Source: a candidate division FCPU426 bacterium (GTDB taxonomy: Bacteria > Oederibacteriota > Muellerivitia > Muellerivitales > Muellerivitaceae). Taken from it: DNA of 33,720 nucleotides. The first letter of the stretch is position 1; each line of letters begins with the position of its first letter. Both the position numbers and the translations under genes were made by a program. A model generated the notes under the pieces. The model was not told the DNA's origin and made no database searches. It saw nothing but the letters and a program-made list of their open reading frames with translations. Location of the stretch: NCBI GenBank assembly GCA_003152075.1, contig PLZG01000048.1, forward strand, positions 31,949 to 65,668, in the 5' to 3' direction. Positions 28,256-33,720 of the stretch are shown one piece after another.

Positions 28256-31200
28256 CTAACGCATCACGATCACCTTCAGGATGAGCTGTTTGTGTTGGGG
28301 TCCTCCCACATTCACCCTTAGGTAATACAACCCGTTGGCGACCATCCCTCCCCACCCGTCGCGTAGGTTCCAGGAAAGCGTCGCTTTTCCGGACAAGGCT
28401 TGGGCCCCACCGGTCACCTTGCGGTAAGCCGTAGTGAAAACATCCCAAGTAAGGTTGGAACCCGCGGGGGCCTGTGCGTCAAAGTAAACTGGCCCCTGGT
28501 TAAAAACAGGATTGGGGTAAGGCGGGCCGATGACGATAGTGGTAACGGGCGGAGTGGCGGTAATCGTGGGCGAAAAGGTGATCGTCGGGCTATTGCTGAG
28601 GGTGGAAGTGGGGGTCAGGGTTGGGCTGGAAGTGGGGGTCAGGGTCGGACTGGAGGTGGGCGTCTGGGACGCCGTCCAAGTGGCCGTAATGGTCGGGCTA
28701 TCGGTGGGAGTAGAGGCAGGGCTTGGAGTGGGGCTGGGGGTGGGGGTAAAGCTGGGCGTGGAGGTTGGGGTGACAGTGGGAGAAGAGGTGGGGGAATTCG
28801 TCGGAGAGTTGGTAGCCGTGGGAGTGAGGGTAGGAAGGTCACAGCAATTGGAAGTATAGAGGCCCGAGAGACCGGTTGACCAAACCTGCCCCTGGAAGGA
28901 TAGGCTGACTTGGGAATAACGGTTGACGGTCCCGAAGGGCAGCGTCGTGAGGGATTGGGCCCAATTGATCCCATCCGTGGTTACCCAAAGATCCGTGTCC
29001 TGCCCGGCGGCCCCGCTCCCGCCCATGACCCAAAGGGTGTTTCCGCAGGCCACGGCCAAATGATTCCACCGTGGGGAAAAAAAAGAACCCGTGGGTACGG
29101 AGGGGACCCATGTTGTTCCGTCCCCCGTGGACCATATCTCATTGCTGAACCCCGCGGCCGTCTGGCCCCCGATCACCCATAGGCGGCCATTGAACACCGT
29201 CGCCGTCTGTCCCATGCGGGCCGAAAAAGGCGGTGTAGCGGCCAGGGTCCAGGTTGAGCCGTCGGGGGAAGTCCAGGCGTCGTTGGTGGAACCCAGGGAA
29301 GTCAGGCCGGCCAGGACCCAAAGGTTGTTCTGGAAAACCACGGAGCTGAATTCGGAACGTCCGGCGAAGCCCGCGTTGGAGGTGCCCAGCAAATAGTGGA
29401 GACCGTCGAGGGAATACCAGGTGTCGTTTTTGTAGGTCGTGCCGCTGATAAGGCCCCCCAAAACCCAAAGCTTTCCGTTGAAAGCCACCACGTTGAACTT
29501 GCTCCGGTTGAGGAGGGGAGCCTGGGAAGAACCAAAAGCTTTCCAAATCCCGGCCTGGTAGTAATAAACCGTCACCGGATTGGTGGGCGCGGCTCCCCCT
29601 AAAAGAAAGGGCCCGGGGCCGTTTCCGTTTCCCTGGTCGAAAACCGCCCCGTCATCGGAACGGAAATCGAAAGACGTATTCAAAGCCCAGGTAGAACCGG
29701 GAACTGTCCCTCCGCAGGCGGCTGGCGTAGCCGTAGCGGTGGGTGGAACGGGGGTAGGCGTCGCGGTATAGGGTGTTTGCGCGCCCATTCCCACGGCGGA
29801 AAGGACAGCCGCGTTTAAATCCAGGCGGCCCCAGCCGGTGGTCGTGTTGTAGGTACCGGGGGAACCTAAAATCTGGTGGGCCGTGCTTTCCAGGATCTGG
29901 ACCACCTGGGGCGCTTGCAGGGTGGGGTTCATCGCGAGCAGGAACGCCGCCGCCCCCGCCACCACGGGCGAAGCCGCCGAGGTCCCTGAGGCCTCACCAT
30001 AGTTGTTGTCACAGGGGTCGATAATAAAAGCTGGATCGACGGTGGGTGAGGGGCAGTTCAGCATGCAGCCGAAAAAATTGTCGGCGGTGTCCAAGGTATT
30101 CGGCAAAGCCACATTCGCGCCTCCGGGCGCCATCATCCCCATTCCGGGTCCCGTTTGGGTGTAACCGGGGATGGAATCGGCCGGGCCTACCGCCCCCACG
30201 GCCAGCACCCCTGGGAAGCCGGCCGGATAACTCACGGGCACTCCGTTTCCGCTGTTCCCCACCGCCGCCACTAAAACGCAGCCATGGTTGAGCGCGAAGG
30301 TTACCGCCTGTCCCTCCAGGGGGTCCGGCACAGCCGTACCCAGGGACATGTTGAGTACCTGCGCGCCGTTGAGGGCGGCGAAATAGATTCCCTCCATCAG
30401 GGTACCGGTCGTGTTGGCCCCCGTCGAGTTCGCCACCTTCACGGGCATGATCTTAACCATACCCGGGTAGCCCGCCACCCCCACCGCGCCCCCGTTAAAA
30501 TTGCCCGGGGGAACCGTACCCGTTAAACAAGCGTTGGCCACCCCTCCGTTGTTCCATTGGGCCGCGAGTATCCCGGTAACGTAGGTCCCATGCCCGTGGT
30601 TGTCGATGGTGTTGGTCGTATCCCCGCCCCAGTCCCCCGAGGAGTTGTACCCGGGAATAAAAAGCGAGGAAGGCAAATCAGGATGGTTGGTTTGAAGGTA
30701 ACTGGAGGCCACTCCCGTGTCCAATACCGCCACCGTGACAGGATTGGCCGCGGGGCAAGAAAGGCTGGAACCCGCCAGCGCCCAGGCCGCGGGGGCGTTG
30801 ATCAACAGGTACGGCCAATTGACGTTACCGTTTCCCGTAATGACATTGCAGGGAACCGCCGGCACGACCCCCGAGGTGTAATAAGCGTCCGAGGCCGCCG
30901 TGGGGACGGTACAGGCCTGGAAGAGGTGGTAAAGATAATTGGGCTGGGCCAGTAATACCGCCGGATCGTTTTTTATCCGGGCAAGGGCCTCTTCCACCGA
31001 AAGGCCGCTGGGAATTTTGATCCGAAGCAAGTCAGCCCTAAAATGAAAGGGGTGGGCTTTGCCATTGGCACTTGATACCCTTTCCCTTTCCCCCGCCGAA
31101 AGGCCTGGTTTGAGTTCCACCAGGATTTCCCCCGCCACATATTGGCTGTTAGTGGTAGCGGCCAAGCCGGGGGCGGTAAGGAACAGGGCTTGCGTTAGGA

Positions 31201-31258
31201 AAAACAAAAGGAAGGGTAACCTTGGGAAACTTTGAAAACCGGCCTTGGTCGCCTTCAT
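28256..31258 (-). CDS. Secreted modular subtilisin-like serine protease
   Basis: Exactly 1000 residues. Signal peptide 1-34 (ends GLAA); fervidolysin-like prodomain 40-112 (AGEILVELKPG...AQPNYLYH); S8 peptidase about 145-490 with Asp180 (VLDTG), His223 (GHGTYVTG), oxyanion Asn335 and Ser427 (GTSAASP). A TPT linker (498-512) leads to kelch-like repeats (580-800; WVLGG, WVLAG, WVIGG, WVMGG). A Thr/Pro/Ser linker (808-906) precedes a FlgD-Ig-like domain (910-1000; PYPNP...GLYYLRV) resembling T9SS-type sorting tails. The ATG at 31258 has AAGGGG upstream. A longer frame starts at TTG 31279 but lacks a site. It stands alone, with its own terminator. Confidence 0.93.
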   Translation of the reverse strand: MKATKAGFQSFPRLPFLLFFLTQALFLTAPGLAATTNSQYVAGEILVELKPGLSAGERERVSSANGKAHPFHFRADLLRIKIPSGLSVEEALARIKNDPAVLLAQPNYLYHLFQACTVPTAASDAYYTSGVVPAVPCNVITGNGNVNWPYLLINAPAAWALAGSSLSCPAANPVTVAVLDTGVASSYLQTNHPDLPSSLFIPGYNSSGDWGGDTTNTIDNHGHGTYVTGILAAQWNNGGVANACLTGTVPPGNFNGGAVGVAGYPGMVKIMPVKVANSTGANTTGTLMEGIYFAALNGAQVLNMSLGTAVPDPLEGQAVTFALNHGCVLVAAVGNSGNGVPVSYPAGFPGVLAVGAVGPADSIPGYTQTGPGMGMMAPGGANVALPNTLDTADNFFGCMLNCPSPTVDPAFIIDPCDNNYGEASGTSAASPVVAGAAAFLLAMNPTLQAPQVVQILESTAHQILGSPGTYNTTTGWGRLDLNAAVLSAVGMGAQTPYTATPTPVPPTATATPAACGGTVPGSTWALNTSFDFRSDDGAVFDQGNGNGPGPFLLGGAAPTNPVTVYYYQAGIWKAFGSSQAPLLNRSKFNVVAFNGKLWVLGGLISGTTYKNDTWYSLDGLHYLLGTSNAGFAGRSEFSSVVFQNNLWVLAGLTSLGSTNDAWTSPDGSTWTLAATPPFSARMGQTATVFNGRLWVIGGQTAAGFSNEIWSTGDGTTWVPSVPTGSFFSPRWNHLAVACGNTLWVMGGSGAAGQDTDLWVTTDGINWAQSLTTLPFGTVNRYSQVSLSFQGQVWSTGLSGLYTSNCCDLPTLTPTATNSPTNSPTSSPTVTPTSTPSFTPTPSPTPSPASTPTDSPTITATWTASQTPTSSPTLTPTSSPTLTPTSTLSNSPTITFSPTITATPPVTTIVIGPPYPNPVFNQGPVYFDAQAPAGSNLTWDVFTTAYRKVTGGAQALSGKATLSWNLRDGWGGMVANGLYYLRVNVGGPQHKQLILKVIVMR
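28541..28837 (-). repeat. Low-complexity Thr/Pro/Ser linker repeats in the subtilase gene
   Basis: The DNA encoding residues 808-906 consists of degenerate TPT/SPT codon repeats, including an almost exact 24-nt tandem duplication that encodes TSSPTLTP twice (around 28605-28660). Such tracts expand and contract by slippage and are prone to assembly errors. Confidence 0.85.
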
Positions 31259-31456
31259 ATAAGAAGCCCCTTTAACCAAATAAACCGGTTCAAAATAAAT
31301 GAAATAAGAATGATCATCATTTTATCACCCTTTTTCAGGCGGGCGTGAAAGGGGGTGAAAATGGGTTTTTAATCTTCGTCCGGTATAGGTCACAAAATAT
31401 AGTGTTTCCGCAACATTCTTTATTCCACCCATTCGGTGGAAACCCTTAAACCGTAG

Positions 31457-31671
31457 GAGGGGAAAGCGCGGAAGGAGTTCGGGTGTTATTACCCCCACGC
31501 GGTTGAAACCCAGGTCCAAGACCCCTCGGGCAGCGTTTTCTTGGACCTCATCGGCATCCCCAGGGCGGATATCGAAGCCGCCCAAAAGGGCAAACCCCAG
31601 GGCGAGCCCCTCCCCTTTCAAATCCTCAAACTATTTGTCCTCCAAATAGGCCTAAGCATTGGGTTTCTAAG
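31457..31671 (+). pseudogene. Possible gene remnant interrupted by repeats
   Basis: Open in one plus-strand frame from just after a TAG (31454-31456), without a credible start. The translation contains YPHAVETQVQDPSGSVFLDL and IPRADIEAAQKGKPQGEP, and the codons favour G/C in third positions like the downstream ParB-like gene. From about 31672 the frame runs into palindromic repeats. I do not recognise the family; it may be the tail of a lost gene or chance. Confidence 0.22.
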
Positions 31672-31787: not shown

Positions 31788-31935
31788 AGGTCAAAATAAG
31801 TGCGGTTCTTAGTCTTAAAAAGGCTTGTGCTTGTTGGATTTTCCAAAAAGCGGACAAATCTTTGGGACTAGCCTAAAAATGCTTTAAGGATATATCTTTG
31901 CGCCGTAACTCAATTCACGGCAAAAGGAGAATTCC

Positions 31936-33720
31936 ATGTCCACTCTATTGGTAATCCACACCAGCAAAATCATGCCCAATCCGGATAACCCCCGGGGTCC
32001 CGTAAACCCCACCGAAGCCCAAACCATGGCGGATTCCATGAAGGAAGTAGGCCAAAAGACCGAGGTTCGGGTAAGGCCCCTGACGGAAGAGGAGAGGACC
32101 AAGTTCCCCACTTACGAGTACCTGCTGATCGGGGGACATGTGCGCCTGGCCGGAGCCAAGCTTCCGGGTTGGAGACCCTGCAGGCCATAGTGGTGGAGGG
32201 GGGTACCCCCGACCAAGAGTTTAAGGACGCCGCGTTGGACAACCGGTCCAACGATATGGGCTGGTGGAAGTGGGACCTCATCATTGAGAGACTCCTGAAG
32301 CCTACCAATGGGGAGGGTCAAAGGAAGCTGGCGGCTGAACTGGGTTACGCCCCACCCAAAGTAAACCGGGCCTGGAAGATTACCCAGGCTTTAACCCCGG
32401 CCGCCAGGGATTTGGTGACCCAAAGTGTTACGCCGCGTAACACCCAAAGTAAGGGTTTTTTGATCACCGAGTCCATCCTGCTGGCCCTTGCCGACCTTGG
32501 GGACCCTGCCCAGGTCGAAAAGGCCCTACGGGAAGTCTTGGACAAGGAGATGACCGAGGCCCAGGTCCGGGAGTTGGTAAAGGGCCTCAAGCCAGCTGGG
32601 GATCCCGTGGCTTCGAGGGCAGATGGGCCGGGGGTACCGCCCAGCGGGGCGGTTCAGGCTACCTCGAAAGCAAAGAAAACCATAAAACCTGAACCAAAGG
32701 GTACACAGGGTGCCTCTGCCCTGAGGTCACAAGCCGACCTGTCCCCCGGAGTTTTAACGCAGGGGGAAAGCCTCCTTTGGGATGGGCTGGCGGGGGTTTC
32801 GGTGGTTGGCCGGATCAAATCCAAGATCAAAAAGGGGGAAAGGCCTACCTGGTGGGAATTCTTGATCCTTGCCGGGGCCACCCTACTTGTACCGGTTAAG
32901 TGGATCGGGCACCTGGCCTGGAAGGCTTTGAAATGGGTGGCTAGGGAGCTTTTTCACGGCACCCGCCAGGCGGCCCGGGGGCTGGCCAAGCTGGTTGGCG
33001 GGGTGGTGGGAGGGGTTTTGAAAATGGTCCTCATGGTCGCCCTGGTCTTGTTGCTGGTCTGGGGGGCCTATGAGGTTTTGTTCCAACACCGGTCGGTGGG
33101 TAGCCTGGTTAAGCAGGTGGTGATGTGGCCGGTTGAAACCATTAAAACTGCATTTAACCAACATCCTCTTACGAGGATGACCGCCACAAAGGGCACCAAG
33201 AAAGACAAAACCGATAGTGGGGACGGAAAAGAAATTGAGAACCCACAAACTATTTCGATTGAACCGCCAAGTTCGCCACGGGCGCCAAGAGAGGCGAAAA
33301 GAAAAGAAAATCCGGTTGTTCAAAACGTGGCAAAACCAACCGTTCAAGCTTGGAACGCGGAGATCGAGGACCGGAGTTATCTCGAAGCCGAAATCGCCGC
33401 GGTGCCCGGACCCGGCTGGATCATATCCTTCCCCTTTGAGCCCATTCCTATGAGCGGGGACATGTCCATCCGCCGGTTGGGGGACCTGCAGGACCAGGAA
33501 AAATATTCCTTGATCGTGGGGCACGACAAGAGGAAGGTCCTGTCGGTCTCCCCCGCCATGACCGGCTTCACCCTGACTTATGAGGACGGGCTCCCCATCG
33601 GGGGCATCCTGGGCGGCCCCGCCAAGATTGATTTTTATTGGGAGGACGTGAAGGCCATTCACAGCGACGAGATCGATTCGGGCGGCCGGAAAATTTACCA
33701 ATTCAGTTTGGTGGTGAACG
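31936..33720 (+). CDS. ParB-like membrane protein, frameshifted, 3' end outside window
   Basis: ATG at 31936 with AAAAGGAG 6 nt upstream. Frame one stops at 32190, but homology-like sequence continues in the -1 frame from about 32163 and stays open for 519 codons to the window end. Joined, it begins with a ParB/methyltransferase-associated fold: MPNPDNPRGPV, YEYLLIGGHVRLAGAK, SGLETLQAIVVEGG, ALDNRSND. A helix-turn-helix follows (QRKLAAELGYAPPKVNRAW, 32319-32375), then a charged linker, two hydrophobic segments (32850-32921 and 33024-33071), a second linker and a beta-rich region (33400 on) I do not recognise. The shift near AAGCTT is a real mutation or a one-base sequence error. A DNA-binding, membrane-tethered role is inferred. 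Confidence 0.7.
32418..32450. repeat. 19-nt palindrome between direct repeats inside the ParB-like gene
   Basis: GTGTTACGC-C-GCGTAACAC (32425-32443) has perfect 9-bp arms around one central base. ACCCAAAGT flanks it at 32418-32426 and 32442-32450, so the protein reads TQS-VTPRN-TQS. The form resembles ParB/KorB operator sites, or the scar of a small in-frame insertion. Confidence 0.7.
33264..33296. repeat. 9-nt periodic repeat arm inside the ParB-like linker
   Basis: CGCC recurs exactly every 9 nt at 33265, 33274 and 33283 (CGCCAAGTT, CGCCACGGG, CGCCAAGAG), followed by AGGCGA. The same 9-nt design is seen in the repeat at 23510-23641. Here it is translated in frame within the Pro/Lys-rich linker. 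Confidence 0.5.

Follow-up and report, generated by a model that had tools for sequence, protein, structure and literature searches.

The ParB-like gene at the window edge

Proteins with a ParB fold act as DNA clamps under nucleotide control and are known from the cytoplasm. A gene located at positions 31936-33720 of the DNA studied here raises the question of whether such a fold can also form part of a membrane protein and, if so, what this protein might do. The DNA, referred to as the window, is a 33,720-nucleotide stretch (G000:C39:31949-65668, where G and C numbers designate genomes and contigs, respectively) of the 4.1-Mb genome of a candidate division FCPU426 bacterium. Contig C39 stops at the window edge, within the ParB-like gene, and any further genes of the GC-rich block proposed by the initial annotation would lie beyond the available sequence. 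The initial annotation described a ParB-like N-terminal domain and a helix-turn-helix (HTH), then a linker, hydrophobic membrane segments and a tail rich in beta structure, and all of these features are present (Table 1).

Table 1. Features of the window copy and of the DNA preceding it.
Feature	Coordinates	Strand	Basis or remarks
3'-end copy of a gene for a membrane protein (complete on C33)	31473-31616	+	92% identical to C33
Surviving half of the ~75-bp promoter-like element	31607-31648	-	nhmmer E 4.5e-8
5' flank common to C109 and, in part, to C99	31731-31935	+	last 104 bp 96% identical to C109
ParB/Noc-type N-terminal (CTPase-fold) domain, first frame	31936-32190	+	ORF with Shine-Dalgarno sequence; TIGR00180
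Second frame of the same gene, 517 aa, open up to the contig end	32169-33719	+	
Box III equivalent LDNRSND	32235-32255	+	family alignment; Asn invariant in the family
HTH region	32304-32396	+	aligns with HTH_24/HTH_ParB matches of paralogues
First hydrophobic segment	32844-32906	+	membrane score +1.03, basic flanks
Transmembrane helix, predicted with its N terminus inside	33015-33077	+	membrane score -2.48
Conserved beta-rich domain, truncated by the contig end	33345-33719	+	predicted strands, low confidence

The first ORF is preceded by a good Shine-Dalgarno sequence, AAAAGGAG, at nucleotides 31922-31929. A profile search with this ORF gave two ParB-family matches, both of them below the cut-off (TIGR00180, E 1.3e-4; PF02195, E 0.038), and the encoded piece shows 60-66% identity to intact relatives. 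The gene is interrupted by a frame change near nucleotide 32160, and over the C-terminal half the second frame shares 48-62% identity with its closest paralogues, located on C109, C99, C31 and C36. Since relatives cross the same junction in one frame, the two frames are rightly joined and their adjacency is not due to chance; the idea of one open frame after a single correction is supported to this extent, but the window copy itself stands in two frames. A frame change or in-frame stops were found in four members of the family (the window copy, C36, C108 and G005:C23), and as three of these are other members with in-frame stops, the window copy is as likely to be a decayed gene as to contain a sequencing error.

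Box II of the window copy, encoded by the first frame, reads GGHVR within the sequence GGHVRLAGAK. The reported replacement of the usual GERR by this motif is correct for the window copy, but GGHVR marks a single head class among several, and GENRYRA or GERRYWA is kept in others. In the family alignment the box II G and R are nearly invariant and the box III Asn is invariant, while other positions vary.

The gene family and its distribution

The C-terminal half of the protein is encoded at eight loci of G000, those of the window, C109, C99, C31, C36, C82, C13 and C54. The longest copies, on C109 and C99, code for 850 and 853 amino acids and include the full plan, which consists of a ParB fold, an HTH, a basic juxtamembrane region, a strong transmembrane helix, a conserved beta domain and a PDZ domain. 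A Pfam scan of the C109 protein identified PF02195 (E 1.4e-7), for which several relatives also exceed the gathering score, and PDZ_2 (E 3.9e-4); a PDB sequence search produced weak PDZ matches only. The C-terminal domain originally described as unknown is indeed a beta-rich tail, but in the window it is cut by the contig end, and intact copies extend about 140 amino acids past this point, including the PDZ domain. The strand pattern of the beta domain gives the impression of a PH-like fold, but no more than that.

The copies on C31, C82, C13 and C54 do not have the ParB fold; they start with an HTH-like segment and keep everything downstream. On C108 there is a soluble relative composed of two ParB-HTH units, with a counterpart of similar build in G002:C69. 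The canonical ParB of G000 is a separate 288-amino acid protein encoded on C96. The C-terminal ParB dimer domain (PF23552) was absent from Pfam scans of family members, and no ParA was recognized among the neighbors of family genes in the loci read. The dN/dS values between copies for the C-terminal half range from 0.16 to 0.6 and are mostly 0.2-0.35, and this half is under purifying selection.

A search of 59 genomes identified relatives in five further genomes that belong to the GTDB family of G000, and in one genome of a different family, G018, without a transmembrane helix in the latter case. The family is absent from the congener G001. Across 45 genomes of the phylum, family relatives stood far above the canonical ParBs of about 290 amino acids found in most genomes. 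When the C-terminal half encoded in G000 was aligned against GTDB contigs and the viral contigs of IMG/VR, no relatives came up, and no plasmid or phage record matched outside the ParB head. The gene family has so far been seen only in the uncultured candidate phylum FCPU426. Members from G004, G005 and G006 (L045, L040, L042, L043 and L044) have a short hydrophobic C-terminal motif after a long linker, with the variants KALGL, KAFGF, KTFGF, KNLLGF and KKALGF.

Fold and predicted membrane topology

The AlphaFold2 model of the window piece had a mean pLDDT of 40, too low for a fold search, and the fold was analyzed with a model of the relative G006:C102 (L054), built from a shallow alignment, in which the ParB and HTH regions mostly have pLDDT values of 50-90. 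Foldseek matched this model over about 230 residues to Noc (7nfu, the best match, E 7.4e-8), ParB and KorB. The helices H135-142 and H146-158, equivalent to the window HTH region, matched the DNA-binding domains of Noc and ParB. Together with the TIGR00180 match and the PF02195 matches of paralogues and relatives, these results support the ParB kinship that the initial annotation had proposed. The C-terminal domain of the same model showed a weak resemblance to the NTF2-like folds of DotI/VirB8 (E 0.03-0.1).

Transmembrane segments were called with a simple biological-scale scan. Of the two hydrophobic segments described in the window copy, where the initial annotation expected helices within nucleotides 32850-33071, the second is a convincing helix (residues 283-303 of the second frame, KD 2.16), but the first is marginal, includes a Pro, has flanking charges of +5 and +2, and is probably interfacial. 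A strong transmembrane helix, at least one per protein, is predicted in all eight G000 copies of the C-terminal half, those on C13 and C54 with extra hydrophobic segments, as well as in 11 of 11 membrane-type relatives from G002, G004, G005 and G006. These predictions support the proposed membrane tethering, and profile matches and helix prediction place a DNA-binding domain and a transmembrane helix in one chain. Since basic residues usually precede the helix, the head is expected on the cytoplasmic side and the C terminus beyond the membrane.

With this structure the family probably acts from the membrane as a gene regulator or as a DNA tether. The main rival to regulation is a Noc-like or PadC-like tether, in which the ParB/Noc fold would load on DNA and the helix would hold a locus or the chromosome at the envelope, in an organizing role. 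Noc, which has a ParB/Noc fold and an HTH, is the best structural match, and it links DNA to the membrane under CTP control (PMC8429893). The TIGR04285 "nucleoid occlusion" profile was also matched with an E value of 1e-11, but the score of 44 bits is far under the curated cut-off of 315, so that the Noc threshold is not reached. Noc is not known to reach the membrane by anything other than a surface helix. This short amphipathic helix is N-terminal and Noc has no extracytoplasmic domain, whereas in the family a transmembrane helix comes after the head and is followed by an additional domain. The multiple copies, the patchy distribution, the four copies devoid of the ParB fold and the sensor-like C-terminal domains also argue against a tether, and we consider this explanation doubtful.

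Modular organization

A tree of the heads defined four classes, most of them with strong support. Heads of the GGH type are found in the window copy, C36 and members of G002, G004, G005 and G006; those of the GEN/GER type in C109, C99, C108 and members of G002, G003 and G004; those of the SGQRR type in G004, G005 and G006; and the HTH-only heads in C31, C82, C13 and C54, all from G000. The head classes cross genera while the membrane and C-terminal halves are largely genome-specific, and the proteins are therefore modular. Members of G004 with different heads have in common a 200-bp stretch that is 95% identical, and members of G002 whose heads differ can be aligned over 1.2 kb. The window copy is a mosaic itself: its 5' flank resembles that of C109 (Table 1), its head is nearest to those of other genera, the DNA of its membrane part is 86% identical to C109 and 46% to C36, and its beta domain is 97% identical to C36.

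This distribution of heads and halves fits several heads, with different targets, reading one signal. A nucleotide-dependent DNA clamp set through the membrane by an extracytoplasmic sensor, with exchangeable heads on a genome-specific sensor by which one signal would reach several loci, is a possibility that we raise tentatively. If the transmembrane helix and the far-side domain are true, an envelope signal would be directly linked to a nucleotide-controlled DNA clamp, and the swapping of modules in each genome would offer natural material on the cooperation of head, membrane span and sensor.

An element linked to the family genes

The 5' flank of the window gene includes an inverted repeat, GCCGT/ACGGC, at nucleotides 31902-31921. 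Upstream of this flank lies one half of an intergenic element of about 75 bp; its TAGAATT half is lost, and the surviving half meets the C33-gene fragment at a shared 10-bp tract, CCCCTCCCCT. Only 3'-end fragments of the C33 membrane-protein gene are present beside the array, and a functional link to this gene was dismissed.

Nine full copies of the element were identified in G000, none of them farther than about 5 kb from a family gene. Its conservation centers on TTTGAAA and TAGAATT, which are separated by a G-rich tract, and the core TTTGAAA-N20-24-TAGAATT occurs exactly 8 times in the 4.1 Mb, always beside family genes, compared to once for the reversed control. In six of the nine copies the element is located 25-56 nt ahead of the ATG of an ORF longer than 120 amino acids, with the G-rich strand as the sense strand, and two more copies are located 109 and 147 nt ahead of an ORF start. 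The genes linked to the element include those for envelope or secreted proteins (a beta-lactamase fold, a SecY-like protein and an outer-membrane barrel). The element was found in G000 only, beside the family genes of C13, C36, C99 and C109 and as the half copy at C39; it was weakly detected at C54 and is not beside those of C31, C82 and C108. Degenerate copies also exist on C37 and C5, away from family genes, and two of them precede ORFs.

We read the element as a putative shared promoter or operator, although its copies could merely have been duplicated along with the genes. No conserved pairs were found when an RNA structure was considered for the 75-bp sequence. An integron-like attC reading was also considered, because single genes, all oriented alike, lie between the element copies, but it was dropped as first choice in view of the regular position ahead of start codons, the conserved promoter-like hexamers and the lack of a recognized recombinase. 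At L011 (9940-12617) two elements bracket a gene for a caspase-like protein and, after it, one for an alpha/beta hydrolase, and at L015 (4985-6400) a short SecY-like protein (SecY E 4.7e-24, DUF2007) is encoded directly downstream of an element, beside the C13 gene.

Proposed function

The best fit for the family is a membrane transcription regulator of the ToxR/CadC type built on a ParB/Noc head, a proposal to which we give about even chances. What we infer about topology, nucleotide use, signal, element binding and regulation would combine as follows: a cytoplasmic ParB/Noc-type head, with its nucleotide-binding fold and HTH, would bind DNA; the basic juxtamembrane region and one transmembrane helix would keep it at the inner membrane, mostly as a single-pass protein; the far-side C-terminal domain (beta domain plus PDZ in G000, NTF2/VirB8-like in sister genera) would take an envelope signal or bind a partner; and genes near each copy would be regulated via the shared promoter-like element. 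We favor regulation because of the head predicted inside, the membrane helix, the sensor- or adaptor-like domain outside, the exchangeable heads and the local promoter-like elements. Counted against it are the four copies that have an HTH only, the patchy occurrence of the element across copies, its long promoter-like spacer (21-23 nt, exceeding that of standard sigma-70) and the degenerate copies away from family genes. The element, unique to G000, is a concrete first candidate binding site.

The predicted plan is that of ToxR and CadC (PMC10269533), in which a DNA-binding head in the cytoplasm is connected through one membrane helix to a domain on the far side, but the head of the family is of the ParB/Noc type. 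The fold, the box II G..R and the box III Asn of ParB/Spo0J, KorB and VirB, of which KorB and VirB are gene regulators, are kept in the family; however, all these proteins are soluble, and the family shows no detectable ParB dimer domain. Orphan ParB folds joined to lineage-specific domains have been described among ParB-CTPase-fold fusions, with HNH, methyltransferase, CBS, ASCH and other domains in a PNAS survey (PMC12704722). The word "transmembrane" is absent from this survey, "ParB" is absent from the main text of the one on transmembrane regulators (PMC10269533), and to that extent the combination of a ParB head and a membrane helix is not described in either of them.

Duplications and genetic neighborhood

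Near several family genes, inserted genes (Fic, MazEF and others) sit between the 3' end of a gene and a direct copy of this 3' end. These 3'-end copies are about 100-255 bp long and 83-96% identical, and were found at L014 (5045-5299/6260-6514), L041 (3499-3602/4773-4876), L048 (5951-6060/6719-6828), L038 (5222-5317/6474-6569) and L075 (5567-5667/6326-6427). Insertion with duplication is a recurrent pattern in this bacterial group.

The family could also be a decaying, locally duplicated accessory family that marks insertion hot spots, with the element and the 3'-end duplications as footprints of insertion rather than of regulation. The four interrupted members, the duplicated 3' ends around inserted genes and the 10-bp tract at the window junction are consistent with this; the purifying selection on the C-terminal half, the persistence of intact copies in several genomes, and the conservation of the element around TTTGAAA and TAGAATT at a regular distance from the ATG speak against it, and we regard this explanation as unlikely.

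Accessory genes of the toxin-antitoxin, restriction-modification and other types lie near the relatives, and PemK/MazF, Fic, ORF6N, RES, OLD-type ATPases, methyltransferases and DUF5131 were recognized there. Such a context would suit a component of defense or mobile loci that anchors invading or integrated DNA or controls defense genes, but housekeeping genes are also common in these neighborhoods. Family regions gave hits to 240 PADLOC families, a number inflated by similar ATPase models, versus 66 for random control regions, and since the control regions match too, the enrichment in defense islands is suggestive but not clean. A non-exhaustive search recognized no integrase, relaxase or conjugation genes in the family loci read, and plasmid or phage records matched nothing outside the ParB head; the mobile-element anchor suggested by the initial annotation is not supported. 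We consider a role in defense or mobile loci very unlikely.

In the window, the family gene is adjoined by a gene on the minus strand (28256-31279) for a subtilase of 1007 amino acids that has Kelch-like repeats and a stretch rich in Thr, Pro and Ser. At L043 (951-3983), immediately upstream of the G006:C102 member, genes for a TIR-like protein, a nucleotidyltransferase-like protein and a small membrane protein were read by eye as a possible CBASS-like locus.
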